Shown one piece after another: positions 14,115-39,378 of a stretch of 64,000 nucleotides of DNA. The stretch lies in the NCBI RefSeq assembly GCF_017352195.1, contig NZ_CP071445.1, positions 434,001-498,000 on the forward strand, in the 5' to 3' direction. This DNA is from Sedimentibacter sp. zth1 (lineage in GTDB: Bacteria; Bacillota; Clostridia; Tissierellales; Sedimentibacteraceae). Position 1 is the stretch's first letter. Each line of letters opens with the position of its first letter. The notes under the pieces were generated by a model, which ran no database searches, was not told where the DNA came from, and saw only the letters and a program-made list of their open reading frames with translations. Both the position numbers and the translations under genes were made by a program.

Positions 14115-14507
14115 TTATTTCGTACCTTTCATATTTTTCATACCTTCCATACCTTCCATGCTGTCCATGCTGTCCATGCTGTCCATGCTTTCCATACTGT
14201 CCATACTTTCCATACATTTCATGCTGTTCATGCAATGCATACTATTCATGCAACGATTACCGTTCATACATTGCATACTATGCATGCAACGATTACCATT
14301 CATACATTGCATACTATTCATACAACGATTACCGTTCATACATTGCATACTATTCATACAACGGTTACTGTTCATACACTGCATGCCTTTCATACATTGC
14401 ATACTATGCATGCCTTTCATACTTTTCATACCATGCATACCTTGCATACTCATCATTTCATTATCATTGTTAGATGGTGAAGATACTGGCATTTCATATT
14501 TATCCAT
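14115..14507 (-). CDS. Met/Cys-rich triplet-repeat protein, possible spore coat or metal-binding protein
   Basis: 130 residues. This frame was chosen over long open frames on the other strand because it has a proper SD (ATGAGGTAAATTAA before ATG 14507), an upstream sigma-K-like promoter and a regular amino-acid pattern. From residue 19 to 126 nearly every third residue is Met (36 Met in all) and the residue before it is Ser, Gly or Cys. Eleven Cys occur at exact six-residue spacing from 38 to 98, built from a 12-residue unit (NSMQCMNGNRCM) repeated about four times. Positive residues cluster N-terminally (26-41) and Glu/Asp C-terminally (100-122). Period-3 small residues suggest an extended polyproline-II-like or beta-helical rod with aligned thiols. 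No known family is recognised. Confidence 0.72.
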   Translation of the reverse strand: MDKYEMPVSSPSNNDNEMMSMQGMHGMKSMKGMHSMQCMKGMQCMNSNRCMNSMQCMNGNRCMNSMQCMNGNRCMHSMQCMNGNRCMNSMHCMNSMKCMESMDSMESMDSMDSMDSMEGMEGMKNMKGTK

Positions 14508-16941: not shown

Positions 16942-16964
16942 CTCCTTATCCAATGCATAAAGAG
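16942..16964 (-). promoter_or_regulatory. Hairpin sequestering the thiT ribosome-binding site
   Basis: Minus strand arms CTCTTTAT / ATAAGGAG (one G:U pair, loop of 7) bury the AGGAG SD of thiT. With the adjacent TPP aptamer this looks like a translational expression platform. Confidence 0.65.
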
Positions 16965-16973
16965 AACTAACAC

Positions 16974-17042
16974 GCTTCCTTACGCTGGTATTAACCAGTT
17001 CAAGTTATAAGGGTAAATCTCAGCCGTTGGCTCCCCTAGCAA
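16974..17042 (-). promoter_or_regulatory. TPP (thiamine pyrophosphate) riboswitch
   Basis: Minus strand carries the THI-box core: GGGGAGCC, then GGCTGAGA, ACCCTT, GAACTGG and TAATACCAGCG followed by GGAAG. It lies about 40 bases before thiT and after a good promoter. When TPP binds, thiT expression should fall. Confidence 0.95.
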
Positions 17043-17068
17043 AATATTGTATTTACTTAACAAAAGAC

Positions 17069-20848: not shown

Positions 20849-21707
20849 ATATCATTTTCATTACTAAATCACCAACATTACAACCAATATCTTTTGCTAC
20901 TGAATTGCACTTTGCTTTAAACAGATAGAATATATTTTTATCTTTTACTTCACTTAGTGTTTCATAGTTAGCTTGACCTTTAGCAATAATTAAATCAGCA
21001 TCTTCGAATTCCTTAATAAATTCTTGAGAGCATAAGCTCATTATTGTTCCTTGCGCATCTGAACCGTTATCTATAACTCTAACTAAATCATTTATTTTAA
21101 CGTCTAGGGCGTCTTTTATAGTTGCATCATTGACAATAGGTTCTTTTTTAACAACGTATGTTATTTTATTTTTTGGAAGTTTGCTAATAAATAGCTTGTC
21201 AAAAACAATCTCACCGGCGTTATCTGCTAAATATAATATTTTATTACTGCTTTGTAAATGTTTGATAAAATTTTCTACATCGTTACCAAATAATCTGTCG
21301 GTTATACATGTTTCTAAAGTTTTTGTTACTAATTCCTTTGTTATGTAATCATGTGCACTAAAGTCAATTATATTGCCTGCTATTGCAATTCTGCATGCAG
21401 TTTCAATAGGAGAAGTGCTTTTATTTATCATTTCTTCAAGCTTGTATGTTTCACATAATTTAAAAGCAAATTTATTGCAATCATCCTTTATTTGTTTGTA
21501 TGGGTCATCTAAATTTAACTCATCAATTACATATTTATTAAATATTCGGTTCAATTCAGGTGATGTTTCTTGAAAAGTTACGTCTCCTAACTTTTTATAT
21601 AAATTTCTTATTATATTTTGTTGGATTTCAATATTTTTTGTACTCATAGTTGCTACTTTTGTAATTTGTCTTGATAAGCAAATTAAACAGTCATAAGTTA
21701 TTTTCAT
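20847..21707 (-). CDS. DUF89 / ARMT1-like damage-control phosphatase family protein
   Basis: 286 residues. N-terminal KITYDCLICLSRQITKVA carries a CxxC pair typical of the prokaryotic branch. The catalytic metal signature is visible: ILYLADNAGEIVFDKLF (Asp-Asn), VKKEPIVNDATIKD, and the late DADLIIAKGQANYETLSE. The family contains metal-dependent phosphatases acting on harmful phosphometabolites; the substrate here is not known. SD: AGGAG before ATG 21707. Monocistronic, convergent with the nitroreductase gene. Confidence 0.88.
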   Translation of the reverse strand: MKITYDCLICLSRQITKVATMSTKNIEIQQNIIRNLYKKLGDVTFQETSPELNRIFNKYVIDELNLDDPYKQIKDDCNKFAFKLCETYKLEEMINKSTSPIETACRIAIAGNIIDFSAHDYITKELVTKTLETCITDRLFGNDVENFIKHLQSSNKILYLADNAGEIVFDKLFISKLPKNKITYVVKKEPIVNDATIKDALDVKINDLVRVIDNGSDAQGTIMSLCSQEFIKEFEDADLIIAKGQANYETLSEVKDKNIFYLFKAKCNSVAKDIGCNVGDLVMKMI

Positions 21708-21794
21708 TATTATCTCCTAAGTAAAAATAGTTTTCGTATTAATTATATGTTAAATTGTTCCTTTATTCAAATTAAATTTTAGCTGATAAATATA

Positions 21795-21823
21795 TTGACA
21801 AATTATTATAAATTTGTTAGTAT
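21795..21823 (+). promoter_or_regulatory. Promoter of the argS leader
   Basis: TTGACA (21795-21800), 17-bp spacer, TAGTAT (21818-21823). A better hexamer TATAAT at 21821-21826 would give a 20-bp spacer. Confidence 0.6.
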
Positions 21824-21849
21824 AATAAAAAATATAAGGTGGAACTAAA

Positions 21850-21897
21850 ATGAAATATAACGATTCGCAAATATTGAAGTTGAGACGCAGACGATAG
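21850..21897 (+). CDS. 15-residue arginine-rich leader peptide of argS (attenuation peptide)
   Basis: ATG 21850 follows AAGGTGG at good spacing and encodes MKYNDSQILKLRRRR, ending in four consecutive Arg codons (AGA CGC AGA CGA, 21883-21894) directly before TAG. The frame ends within an RNA region that can form alternative hairpins and is followed by an intrinsic terminator ahead of argS, the arginyl-tRNA synthetase gene. This is the hallmark of ribosome-mediated attenuation: scarcity of charged Arg-tRNA would stall the ribosome on these codons and allow read-through into argS. No T-box elements are seen. Confidence 0.8.
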   Translation: MKYNDSQILKLRRRR

Positions 21898-22002
21898 AGC
21901 TTGTATTCTTATTGATAGGTACAGGCTGATTTATGTTATGTATCTATCGTGTGAATTGTTAACATAGAGCACTGTTAGGTATATACTTAGCAGTGTTTTT
22001 TT
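21891..22002 (+). promoter_or_regulatory. Attenuator with alternative hairpins upstream of argS
   Basis: Three competing pairings are visible. ACGATAGA (21891-21898, last Arg codon and stop) pairs perfectly with TCTATCGT (21943-21950). Much of that same 3' arm (21940-21948) can instead pair with GATAGGTAC (21914-21922). The terminator has arms 21969-21979 and 21986-21996, with a T run to 22002; its 5' arm can alternatively pair as TAACA (21960-21964) with TGTTA (21973-21977). Which states exclude each other needs folding. The rest of 22003-22075 holds only the argS SD. Confidence 0.7.
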
Positions 22003-22075
22003 ATGTATTATTGTATATTTTACATAATTTTTAATTTAATATGGCCTTAAAAATTTAACCAATGGAGGATAAAAA

Positions 22076-23836
22076 ATGAAAACTTTATTACAAATATTAA
22101 CTGAAAAAGTATCTGATGCATTTAAAAAATGTGGATATAATTATGAACTTGGGAGGGTGACTGTTTCAGATAGACAAGATTTATGCGAATTCCAATGTAA
22201 TGGTGCTTTATCAGGAGCAAAGCAATATAAAAAAGCACCAAGAATTATTGCAAATGAGATTAAAGAAAAATTAGTGACTGACAGTGATTTTGAAAAGGTT
22301 GAGGTTATAGGTGCTGGCTTTATCAATATTAACATTAGTTCAAAATTATTAATTGATTATTTAGTAGAGCTAAATGCTGATAAAAGTCTTGGTATACCTC
22401 AAACTGAAAATCAAGAAACTGTTGTTGTGGATTACGGCGGACCAAATTGTGCTAAGCCTTTACATATAGGTCATCTTAGAGCAGCGATAATCGGAGAATC
22501 TTTAAAAAGAATAGCATTAAAAACAGGAAGAAATGCTATTGGTGATGTGCATTTGGGAGATTGGGGATTGCAAATTGGTTTAGTTATAGCAGAAGTTTTA
22601 GAAAGATTTCCTGAATATAATTATAACGATAACAATTTTGATGAAGAACATGAAAAAATAATTAAACTAAATGCTGAAATGCTTAATGAGATATACCCAT
22701 TTGCAAGCAAGAAGAGCAAAGAAAATACAGAGTTTAAATCATTAGCTCAACAAATCACAGCTAAAATGCAAAAAGGACATAAAGGCTATTTATCTTTATG
22801 GAAGCAGATTCTTGATATATCAAAAGATGATTTTAAAATTATTTATGATAGCTTGAATGTTCATTTTGAGTATTGGTATGGTGAAAGTGATGCTGAAAAA
22901 TATGTAGATAGACTTACCCAAATACTTGAAGATAAAAATCTACTATATGAAAGCAATGGAGCGATGGTTGTTGATGTACAACAAGAAGATGACAAAACAG
23001 AAATTCCTCCTGTTATAATTAAAAAATCTGATAATTCAAGCATATATGCAACATCAGATTTAGCTACAATACTACAAAGACAGCTTGATTTTCAACCGAC
23101 TTCAATTTGGTATGTTGTTGATTCAAGACAAAGTTTACACTTTAATCAAGTATTTAGATGTGCTAAAAAAGCTAGTATAGTTGATGAAAATGCTACACTT
23201 GAACATTTGGGATTTGGTACTATGAACGGAAAAGATGGAAAACCATTTAAAACAAGAGATGGTGGAGTTATGAAACTTTCTGATTTGTATGATATAGTGT
23301 ATGAAAAAGCTTTAGAAAAATTGAGTGAAAGTAATTTTGTAAGCAAAGAAAACATTGATGATACAGCTAAAAAAATTACAGTTGCAGCTCTTAAATTTGG
23401 AGACTTAATTAATCATAGATTAAAGGATTATGTATTTGATGTAGATAAATTTATAGCTACAAAAGGTAAAACTGGAGTATTTTTATTGTATACAGTTGCA
23501 AGAATTAATTCATTGCTTAAAAAGCTAGAAAATAGCTATGATGGTTCTTTAGACATTAAGAATATTTACTCAAAGTTAGAAAAAGAATTGTTATTGAAAA
23601 TTGCATTAACACCTGAGGTGTTTGTAAAAGCATTCAATGAAAAGGCTCCAAACTATATTTGTGATAATGCATATGATTTGGCTTCCGTTTATTCAAGTTT
23701 CTACAATGATAATCATATAACAACAGAAACAGATATGGATAAAAAGAAAACTTGGATTAGTTTATCAATGCTCGTGAAAAAAGTTCTTGTTAATCAATTG
23801 GATGCACTTGGAATTGAAACAGTTGAAGAAATGTAA
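22076..23836 (+). CDS. argS: Arginyl-tRNA synthetase
   Basis: 586 residues, close to the usual length. An N-terminal Add-1-like domain (to about 115) is followed by the class I catalytic core with GPNCAKPLHIGHLRAAIIGES (the HIGH motif), GDVHLGDWGLQIGLV, and YATSDLATILQRQ. As in many ArgRS proteins a canonical KMSKS is absent; KPFKTRDGGVMKLSDL is the equivalent region. The C-terminal anticodon (DALR) domain ends about as normal. It charges tRNA-Arg in the cytoplasm. SD GGAGGA. Controlled by an Arg4 leader peptide attenuator. Confidence 0.96.
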   Translation: MKTLLQILTEKVSDAFKKCGYNYELGRVTVSDRQDLCEFQCNGALSGAKQYKKAPRIIANEIKEKLVTDSDFEKVEVIGAGFININISSKLLIDYLVELNADKSLGIPQTENQETVVVDYGGPNCAKPLHIGHLRAAIIGESLKRIALKTGRNAIGDVHLGDWGLQIGLVIAEVLERFPEYNYNDNNFDEEHEKIIKLNAEMLNEIYPFASKKSKENTEFKSLAQQITAKMQKGHKGYLSLWKQILDISKDDFKIIYDSLNVHFEYWYGESDAEKYVDRLTQILEDKNLLYESNGAMVVDVQQEDDKTEIPPVIIKKSDNSSIYATSDLATILQRQLDFQPTSIWYVVDSRQSLHFNQVFRCAKKASIVDENATLEHLGFGTMNGKDGKPFKTRDGGVMKLSDLYDIVYEKALEKLSESNFVSKENIDDTAKKITVAALKFGDLINHRLKDYVFDVDKFIATKGKTGVFLLYTVARINSLLKKLENSYDGSLDIKNIYSKLEKELLLKIALTPEVFVKAFNEKAPNYICDNAYDLASVYSSFYNDNHITTETDMDKKKTWISLSMLVKKVLVNQLDALGIETVEEM

Positions 23837-26379: not shown

Positions 26380-26411
26380 GACTTTAAATTTTTTCTATGG
26401 AGGTGTTTTTT

Positions 26412-26939
26412 ATGTGTGAAAATTGTTCTTATAATTGTTTCGAAGATGGATATGGTAATTATTCTGGAAATGGATATGGTAATTATTCTGGAAATGGATA
26501 TGGTAATTATTCTGGAAATGGATATGGTAATTATTCTGGAAATGGATATGGTAATTATTCTGGAAATGGATATGGTAATTATTCTGGAAATGGATATGGT
26601 AATTATTCTGAAAACAGATATGATAATTGTCCTGAAAATAGATATGGTAATTATTTTGAAAATGGATATGGTAATTATTCTGGAAATGGATATGGTAATT
26701 GTTCTGAAAATAGATATGGTAATCATTATAGAAATTGTTGCTATGGTAATCATTTTGAAAATAGATATGGTAATCATTATAGAAATTGTTGCTGTAGATG
26801 TTGCTGTAGATGTTGTTGTAGATGTTGCTGTAGATGTTGCTGCAATCGCTATTACAACTGTTACGAACCTTCAGATTGTCAACAAGATTGTCATTGTTAT
26901 CCTTATCGTTGCTGGTTTTGTAGTGACAACAGATATTAA
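26412..26939 (+). CDS. Gly/Tyr/Asn-repeat protein with Cys-rich tail, possible spore coat protein
   Basis: 175 residues from ATG 26412 (GGAGGTG at good distance; the earlier in-frame ATG at 26397 precedes the SD). After MCENCSYNCFED come about seven identical 8-residue units GYGNYSGN encoded by near-perfect 24-bp DNA repeats (about 26446-26620), then diverged units (GNCSENRY, GNHYRNCC). The tail has five CCC blocks joined by Arg (CCCRCCCR pattern) followed by more Cys (to residue 170). No signal peptide or hydrophobic core is present. Low-complexity Tyr/Gly/Cys proteins of this kind occur in spore coats and exosporia, where Tyr and Cys crosslink. Family not recognised; the role is inferred from composition and promoter. 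Confidence 0.72.
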   Translation: MCENCSYNCFEDGYGNYSGNGYGNYSGNGYGNYSGNGYGNYSGNGYGNYSGNGYGNYSGNGYGNYSENRYDNCPENRYGNYFENGYGNYSGNGYGNCSENRYGNHYRNCCYGNHFENRYGNHYRNCCCRCCCRCCCRCCCRCCCNRYYNCYEPSDCQQDCHCYPYRCWFCSDNRY

Positions 26940-39240: not shown

Positions 39241-39254
39241 TTCATTGATTAGAT

Positions 39255-39333
39255 ATTCGGGAGCTTGTTTATAGGCTGAGAGGAAACTTTAGTTTCGACC
39301 GTACCTGATTTGGATAATGCCAACGTAGGGATA
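39255..39333 (+). promoter_or_regulatory. TPP riboswitch of the thiamine salvage operon
   Basis: THI-box core: GGGAGC, GGCTGAGAGG, variable P3 arm, GACCGTACCTGATTTGGATAA, TGCCAACGTAGGGA. Followed 45 bases later by a terminator hairpin. Confidence 0.95.
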
Positions 39334-39378
39334 AATTATTGATTATAAATATTAAAGTATTAATCACGAAAATTTATA

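Follow-up and report, generated by a model that had tools for sequence, protein, structure and literature searches.

A putative arginine leader-peptide attenuator upstream of a second arginyl-tRNA synthetase gene in Sedimentibacter sp. zth1

Background

How is the arginyl-tRNA synthetase (ArgRS) gene argS controlled that lies within a stretch of 64,000 nucleotides of the Sedimentibacter sp. zth1 genome (contig NZ_CP071445.1, positions 434,001 to 498,000; referred to as the window, whose coordinates are used below unless stated otherwise), and does the short open reading frame (ORF) upstream of it, which ends in a run of arginine codons, take part in this control? A preliminary description of this DNA had proposed attenuation by an arginine leader peptide. 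Our analysis supports this proposal as the best reading of the locus, with changes, in that an antiterminator is added to the set of structures and the controlled gene is the second ArgRS gene of the genome. We put the probability at roughly 85% that the region is a ribosome-mediated transcription attenuator which senses Arg-tRNA charging and acts on this second ArgRS.

Results

The window argS encodes a protein that matches TIGR00456 with 372 bits (cut-off 261.65) and contains all three Pfam domains (N-terminal, catalytic and DALR), so the gene downstream acts in the metabolism of the very amino acid that the leader would sense. Another intact argS is located at 1391409-1393046 of the genome; its product is 30% identical and reaches 534 bits against TIGR00456, and upstream of it neither a T-box nor, by eye, a leader was found. 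The window copy is a second ArgRS gene, probably an acquired one. Since both of its neighbours are encoded on the opposite strand (an ARMT1-like damage-control phosphatase gene on the 5' side and a weakly Dps-like gene, 40 bits versus a cut-off of 114, on the 3' side), argS stands alone. The features of the locus are compiled in Table 1.

Table 1. Sequence features and predicted RNA structures of the argS leader region
Feature	Position	Strand	Basis or remark
Sigma-70-like promoter TTGACA-17-TAGTAT	21795-21823	+	10/12 matches, TG ahead of second hexamer
Shine-Dalgarno sequence of leader ORF, AAGGTGG	21836-21842	+	Sequence reading; 7 nt 5' of ATG
Leader ORF, 15 codons, product MKYNDSQILKLRRRR, then stop	21850-21897	+	Sequence reading, shuffle test
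Arg codons AGA CGC AGA CGA	21883-21894	+	Stop codon TAG at 21895-21897
Hairpin A (segments 1:2), directly 3' of stop codon	21898-21927	+	Folding
Hairpin B (segments 2:3)	21914-21948	+	Folding
Antiterminator (segments 3:4), arms 21937-21952 and 21969-21985	21937-21985	+	Folding
Intrinsic terminator (segments 4:5), 15 pairs and U tract	21966-21999	+	Terminator scan, folding
Shine-Dalgarno sequence of argS, GGAGGA	22064-22069	+	Sequence reading
argS, gene of the second arginyl-tRNA synthetase (586 aa)	22076-23836	+	TIGR00456, Pfam

The sequence bears out the earlier description of a 15-residue ORF with a Shine-Dalgarno (SD) sequence and four arginine codons directly 5' of its stop (ATG AAA TAT AAC GAT TCG CAA ATA TTG AAG TTG AGA CGC AGA CGA TAG), a leader ORF with a run of cognate codons. 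Among the 16241 codons of long window open frames (200 codons or more, both strands, counted from the first ATG, some frames possibly being spurious), arginine is encoded by AGA 297, AGG 48, CGT 41, CGA 12, CGC 3 and CGG 2 times; the leader thus combines the commonest arginine codon with rare ones. The promoter-like sequence ahead of the ORF has an alternative second hexamer, TATAAT at 21821-21826, with a 20-nt spacer from TTGACA, and promoter-like sites are commonplace in such AT-rich DNA (8 in 21600-22150 versus 5.7 +/- 2.0 in shuffles).

The terminator might simply lower constitutive transcription of argS, the arginine-rich ORF being a product of chance or untranslated. We regard this as unlikely, since none of 20000 dinucleotide shuffles of 21795-22075 yielded an SD-led ORF of 6 to 40 codons with RRRR within its last eight residues (RRR was reached in 13 of the 20000), and since the gene under control encodes an ArgRS. 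In the 3.13-Mb genome, the pattern of four MGN codons followed by TAR, which covers TAA and TAG but not TGA stops, matches 23 times; eight of these matches consist of four true arginine codons when read by hand, and by eye one of the eight, that preceding argS, is part of a short ORF with an SD sequence and a terminator downstream.

A terminator-like site was detected once in 21600-22150, compared with 0.0 +/- 0.1 in shuffles; it lies between the leader ORF and argS, with its 3' end 76 bp from the gene, and thus confirms the intrinsic terminator noted previously. The leader as a whole (21830-22010) folds better than all of 200 shuffles (z -4.5). Strong structure would also be expected of a leader RNA that binds a ligand or a protein independently of translation, such as a riboswitch or a target of ArgRS autoregulation. 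We consider this very improbable, as no Rfam family was found over the leader at gathering thresholds, nor over the window argS with 1.5 kb on either side (locus L001) at E values up to 1, and as it leaves the arginine run and the SD sequence unexplained.

Folding also agrees with the mutually exclusive hairpins sharing a 3' arm at 21940-21950 that had been described, in the form of hairpin B and the antiterminator, in both of which this stretch pairs; it is, in addition, complementary to the CGATAG at the end of the leader ORF. The antiterminator and the decisive hairpin just 3' of the stop codon, hairpin A, extend the earlier set of elements. We modelled the co-transcriptional state as an RNA ending at 21985, ahead of the emergence of the terminator 3' arm. 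If this RNA is free from 21898, hairpin A and the antiterminator are predicted together (-22.3 kcal/mol); an RNA accessible only from about 21902 folds mainly into hairpin B and lacks the antiterminator. For the ribosome-free RNA at 37 C, hairpin B has a probability of 0.91-0.93 and the 3:4 antiterminator one of 0.000-0.002, while at least 10 pairs to the terminator 5' arm are formed with a probability of 0.35 under default parameters at 37 C (0.09-0.69 over nine combinations of parameter set and temperature). As hairpin B dominates without translation at 37 C, the default state is probably off.

We then scanned the leader codon by codon, setting the leading edge of the ribosome at +13 from the A-site codon, a distance taken from the toeprints of Staphylococcus aureus ribosomes at arginine codons (PMC13009471). 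The probability of an antiterminator of at least 10 pairs in RNA ending at 21985 was 0.91 at Leu11, 1.0 at Arg12, 0.99 at Arg13, 0.43 at Arg14, 0.02 at Arg15 and 0.05 at the stop codon, so that the predicted fold varies with ribosome position. Escherichia coli trpL and pheM, analysed as controls with a threshold of 6 pairs owing to their shorter arms, responded alike: trpL gave 0.59 and 0.64 at its two Trp codons and 0 both at the stop codon and without a ribosome, and pheM gave 0.93-0.99 at the Phe codons, 0.003 at the stop codon and 0.007 without a ribosome. The high value at Leu11 indicates that the switch is not limited to arginine codons; in both controls the codons adjoining the Trp or Phe codons were on as well. 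In all nine combinations of parameter set and temperature, the argS leader was on at Arg12 (0.73-1.0) and off at the stop codon (0.01-0.06), with 0.40-0.99 at Arg13 and 0.28-0.97 at Arg14; the Langdon2018 parameters gave only 0.40-0.44 at Arg13. The best stall positions for the antiterminator thus carry AGA and CGC, two codons for which the genome probably uses separate tRNA-Arg species.

Switching between antiterminator and terminator by ribosome position was also predicted for 61 of 1500 shuffles and is therefore not rare by chance, which favours the reading of the ORF as a chance occurrence; against that reading, the arginine run occupies the place at which the position of the ribosome selects the hairpin, as do the corresponding codons in trpL and pheM. 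The individual segment pairings were equalled or exceeded in 20 (1x2), 5 (2x3) and 40 (3x4) of 2000 shuffles each. By one measure of energy gain the native sequence did not stand out (332 of 1000 shuffles were equally good), and a first joint test requiring at least 7 pairs was passed by 56 of 2000 shuffles, the native sequence narrowly missing its threshold (0.22 versus 0.2). At equilibrium the full terminator prevails (P ~1) in all ribosome states tested, so antitermination must be kinetic. The predicted folds by themselves thus constitute moderate evidence, and they draw their strength from the fit to the placement of the arginine codons and to the controlled gene.

A stall at Arg12 would yield the antiterminator also if the leader encoded an arrest peptide, in which KLR followed by RRR stalls ribosomes that have bound a ligand or an antibiotic, the signal being drug stress instead of tRNA charging. 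The K-L-R of the leader peptide fits the +X+ arrest motif of macrolide-bound ribosomes. This alternative seems very improbable to us, because the downstream gene is argS and not a resistance gene, and because four arginine codons including the rare CGC and CGA are more than +X+ requires.

Control by a T-box can be rejected for the window argS: no match to RF00230 was found in the window at gathering thresholds, and none in L001 at E values up to 1, in agreement with the absence of a T-box signature noted before. The genome contains 14 T-box matches, 12 of them above the cut-off and none at either argS. The first long open frame downstream of 13 of them is leuS, asnS, pheS, hisS, proS, valS, metG, ileS, tyrS, serS, trpS, aspS or thrS, and the two matches below the cut-off are those before aspS and thrS. 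The remaining one (L184, G000:C1:2764900-2767400) precedes a gene for a GltP/DctA-like symporter; the specifier of this T-box might reveal which amino acid is transported.

Close matches to the window ArgRS (E 1e-147 or better, the next being 8e-87) are present in at least nine of the 249 genomes of the order, its own included, with up to five candidates scored per genome. In a tenth genome (G014) the match is limited to a fragment (L038, 44% identity over residues 374-586), and this genome was dropped. In all eight other genomes a T-box is located upstream of argS (L011, L012, L119-L124), with 92.9 to 128 bits; the lowest score, that of L011, narrowly misses the cut-off of 93, and for L124, whose match spans residues 124-585 only, the gene start was read by eye. 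The specifier loops of these T-boxes read GAAGAGG (five), GAAGAGA (two) and GAAAAGG (one). Among the T-boxes of the Sedimentibacter sp. zth1 genome, read by eye, the cognate codon follows GAA after one further nucleotide (GAA-N-codon) in eight (asnS, pheS, valS, metG, ileS, tyrS, aspS, thrS) and immediately in four (leuS, hisS, proS, trpS). In the former frame the eight relatives specify AGG or AGA (Arg), in the latter GAG or AAG (Glu or Lys); because their T-boxes precede ArgRS genes, the Arg reading is likelier, and judged by sequence the T-boxes on the second argS genes of the order likely have an Arg specifier. For a second ArgRS of this type, control by arginine is thus to be expected. 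An exact T-box core is also present at 3 of 47 principal-type argS loci and at 4 of 40 further ones picked from the matches listed.

Conservation of the leader, which the earlier proposal would have predicted, was not found: neither the 143 argS loci scanned (all of 144 except the fragment L038, and including that of the window) nor 40 further argS upstream stretches contain another convincing arginine leader, and the relatives within the order have T-boxes in its place. At five of the 143 loci (L001, L035, L047, L084 and L136) an SD-led ORF has RRR close to its end. Those of L047 (MLSPNAAVKSRRRRR) and L084 are contained in an upstream open frame of 292-297 codons which ends 7-22 nt before argS, and sister loci show similar arginine-rich reads within that frame; we therefore take both for out-of-frame coding sequence. 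The ORF of L035 resembles arginine-rich reads in other principal-argS loci of the family and probably represents the end of the upstream gene read out of frame, and L136 also contains a T-box core. A crude terminator test was positive at L001 and L136 only; in L001 it was misplaced (32 nt after the stop codon), and we did not rely on it.

Beyond the order, seven other genomes among 391 of the class encode a homologue (E up to 1e-190, 53-57% identity), with no T-box at gathering thresholds and no such leader by eye. For the best 80 of 308 relatives, a T-box core within 600 nt upstream was found in none, and an SD-led RRR ORF in two, the above-mentioned L047 and L084; the 40 further principal-type argS loci have no RRR leader. 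Searches with the leader DNA (E up to 0.001, up to three candidates scored per genome) matched at least 30 of the 249 genomes, all matches outside its own genome being short (the longest about 70 nt), with no match on a plasmid. Two of them, L196 (a promoter before another coding sequence) and L197 (unrelated), were rejected as homologous leaders, and a weak 56-nt match lies elsewhere in the same genome. The putative attenuator is thus known from one genome, with regulatory codons and alternative stems not found conserved in the loci examined, which is what one would also see if the ORF were there by chance.

In a midpoint-rooted tree of 25 sequences, the window ArgRS, on a long branch, groups with Oscillospiraceae-type enzymes (support 100/100), while seven of the eight copies with T-boxes (L124 was left out) form one clade nearer Lachnospiraceae-type enzymes. 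A single clade uniting the window ArgRS with these seven copies was rejected (p-AU 0.0002), the constrained set of eight sequences having been chosen after an earlier quick tree had been seen; that tree of 63 sequences had placed both groups next to each other (96) and carried a long-branch warning. Replacement of a T-box by a leader peptide at one and the same gene finds no support in the tree of 25 sequences.

Discussion

The arginine run precedes the gene of the synthetase for the very amino acid it would sense. According to the mechanism we propose, transcription would begin near 21830 and the leader ORF would be translated. As long as Arg-tRNA is charged, the ribosome would reach the stop codon and cover the RNA to about 21907, blocking hairpin A; hairpin B would then form and keep segment 3, so that the terminator could fold and argS would remain untranscribed. 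When Arg-tRNA is poorly charged, the ribosome would stall with the first (AGA) or second (CGC) arginine codon in the A site, hairpin A would form, and segment 3 would be free to pair with the terminator 5' arm. This antiterminator would allow the polymerase to read through into argS, and the second ArgRS might restore charging.

Cognate codon runs before a synthetase gene are known from E. coli pheST, whose attenuator contains the leader pheM. The argS leader is like pheM in this organisation and in its response in the fold scan; pheST differs in that it concerns Phe and the principal synthetase of a Gram-negative bacterium. Among Firmicutes, His leader peptides have been predicted for the paralogs hisS* and hisZ of bacilli, beside a T-box-controlled hisS (Naville and Gautheret 2010, PMC2965389), and the authors speak of switching between sensing systems. 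As in the present case, leader-peptide attenuation is predicted for a synthetase-family paralog whose related copies are under T-boxes, but there it is His in many bacilli and here Arg in one genome. For an Arg leader peptide before argS, which the preliminary description had called uncommon, no report was found in the openly accessible literature searched. Leader-peptide control of synthetase paralogs beside T-boxes is already described for His, and its extension to arginine and ArgRS appears to be new.

Other systems share single traits with the argS leader. His attenuators have also been predicted in Clostridia (PMC9413887); those of the his operons of the Bacillus cereus group, Peptostreptococcaceae/Lutispora and Erysipelotrichales have three to five consecutive regulatory codons, a terminator and an antiterminator, but sense His and control biosynthetic operons. 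Attenuators predicted for Streptomyces trpS2 and leuS (PMC1262725) likewise represent ribosome-mediated control of a synthetase gene, an additional one in the TrpRS cases, in Actinobacteria and for Trp or Leu instead of Arg. Salmonella orf34-speF (PMC6386406) comes close in its logic, with consecutive arginine codons, a hairpin after the stop codon that is blocked by a ribosome at the stop and set free by an arginine stall; it differs in controlling an ornithine decarboxylase via Rho, RNase G and access to the ribosome binding site (RBS), not via an intrinsic terminator. In S. aureus, the leader peptide rbfL (MVLKYRKR) also senses arginine in a Firmicute, but acts on translation initiation by blocking the rbf RBS and represses upon arginine limitation (PMC13009471); a Leu-rich attenuator peptide is described from the same species (PMC5794164). 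In a B. cereus strain, one of three argS genes is T-box-regulated (PMC2494555).

The T-box-preceded second argS genes of the order (L011, L012, L119-L124) have the same gene role as the window argS, probably the same signal, and a terminator-based control, but rely on direct tRNA binding without a leader peptide and differ in the origin of argS. With likely Arg T-boxes in eight relatives and a shared origin rejected by the tree, the two lineages seem to use different arginine controls, and the simplest story that these sequences suggest is that a second ArgRS was acquired on two separate occasions and came each time under arginine control by a different device. The locus thus offers a natural comparison within one order: second ArgRS genes differ in origin and in device, T-box or leader peptide, and both kinds seem to respond to the charging of tRNA-Arg. 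Leader-peptide transcription attenuation, it appears, extends to arginine and to ArgRS as well, and does so in a genome with T-box matches ahead of thirteen other synthetase genes.

One might speculate that a second ArgRS was acquired at least twice in the order, each time under a sensor of uncharged tRNA-Arg of unrelated mechanism (T-box or leader peptide), because the extra enzyme tolerates stress or an inhibitor and comes into use solely upon a block of the principal ArgRS. A parallel exists in an indolmycin-resistant TrpRS, and Vecchione and Sello (2010) reportedly treat an auxiliary antibiotic-resistant TrpRS gene. We consider this explanation doubtful; if true, it would suggest that these habitats contain an ArgRS inhibitor not yet recognised.

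Several further features of the window were noted in passing. On the forward strand, 26397-26939 contains a 180-aa ORF in which about 14 copies of a 24-bp tandem repeat (GYGNYSGN) give way to 12-bp Cys-Cys-Cys-Arg repeats, with no Pfam match at E values up to 0.001 and with a GC-rich inverted repeat, seen by eye, after it at about 26950. An array of 9/18/27/36-bp tandem repeats occupies 14126-14450, and two TPP riboswitches are located at 16960-17047 (reverse strand) and 39247-39349 (forward strand).
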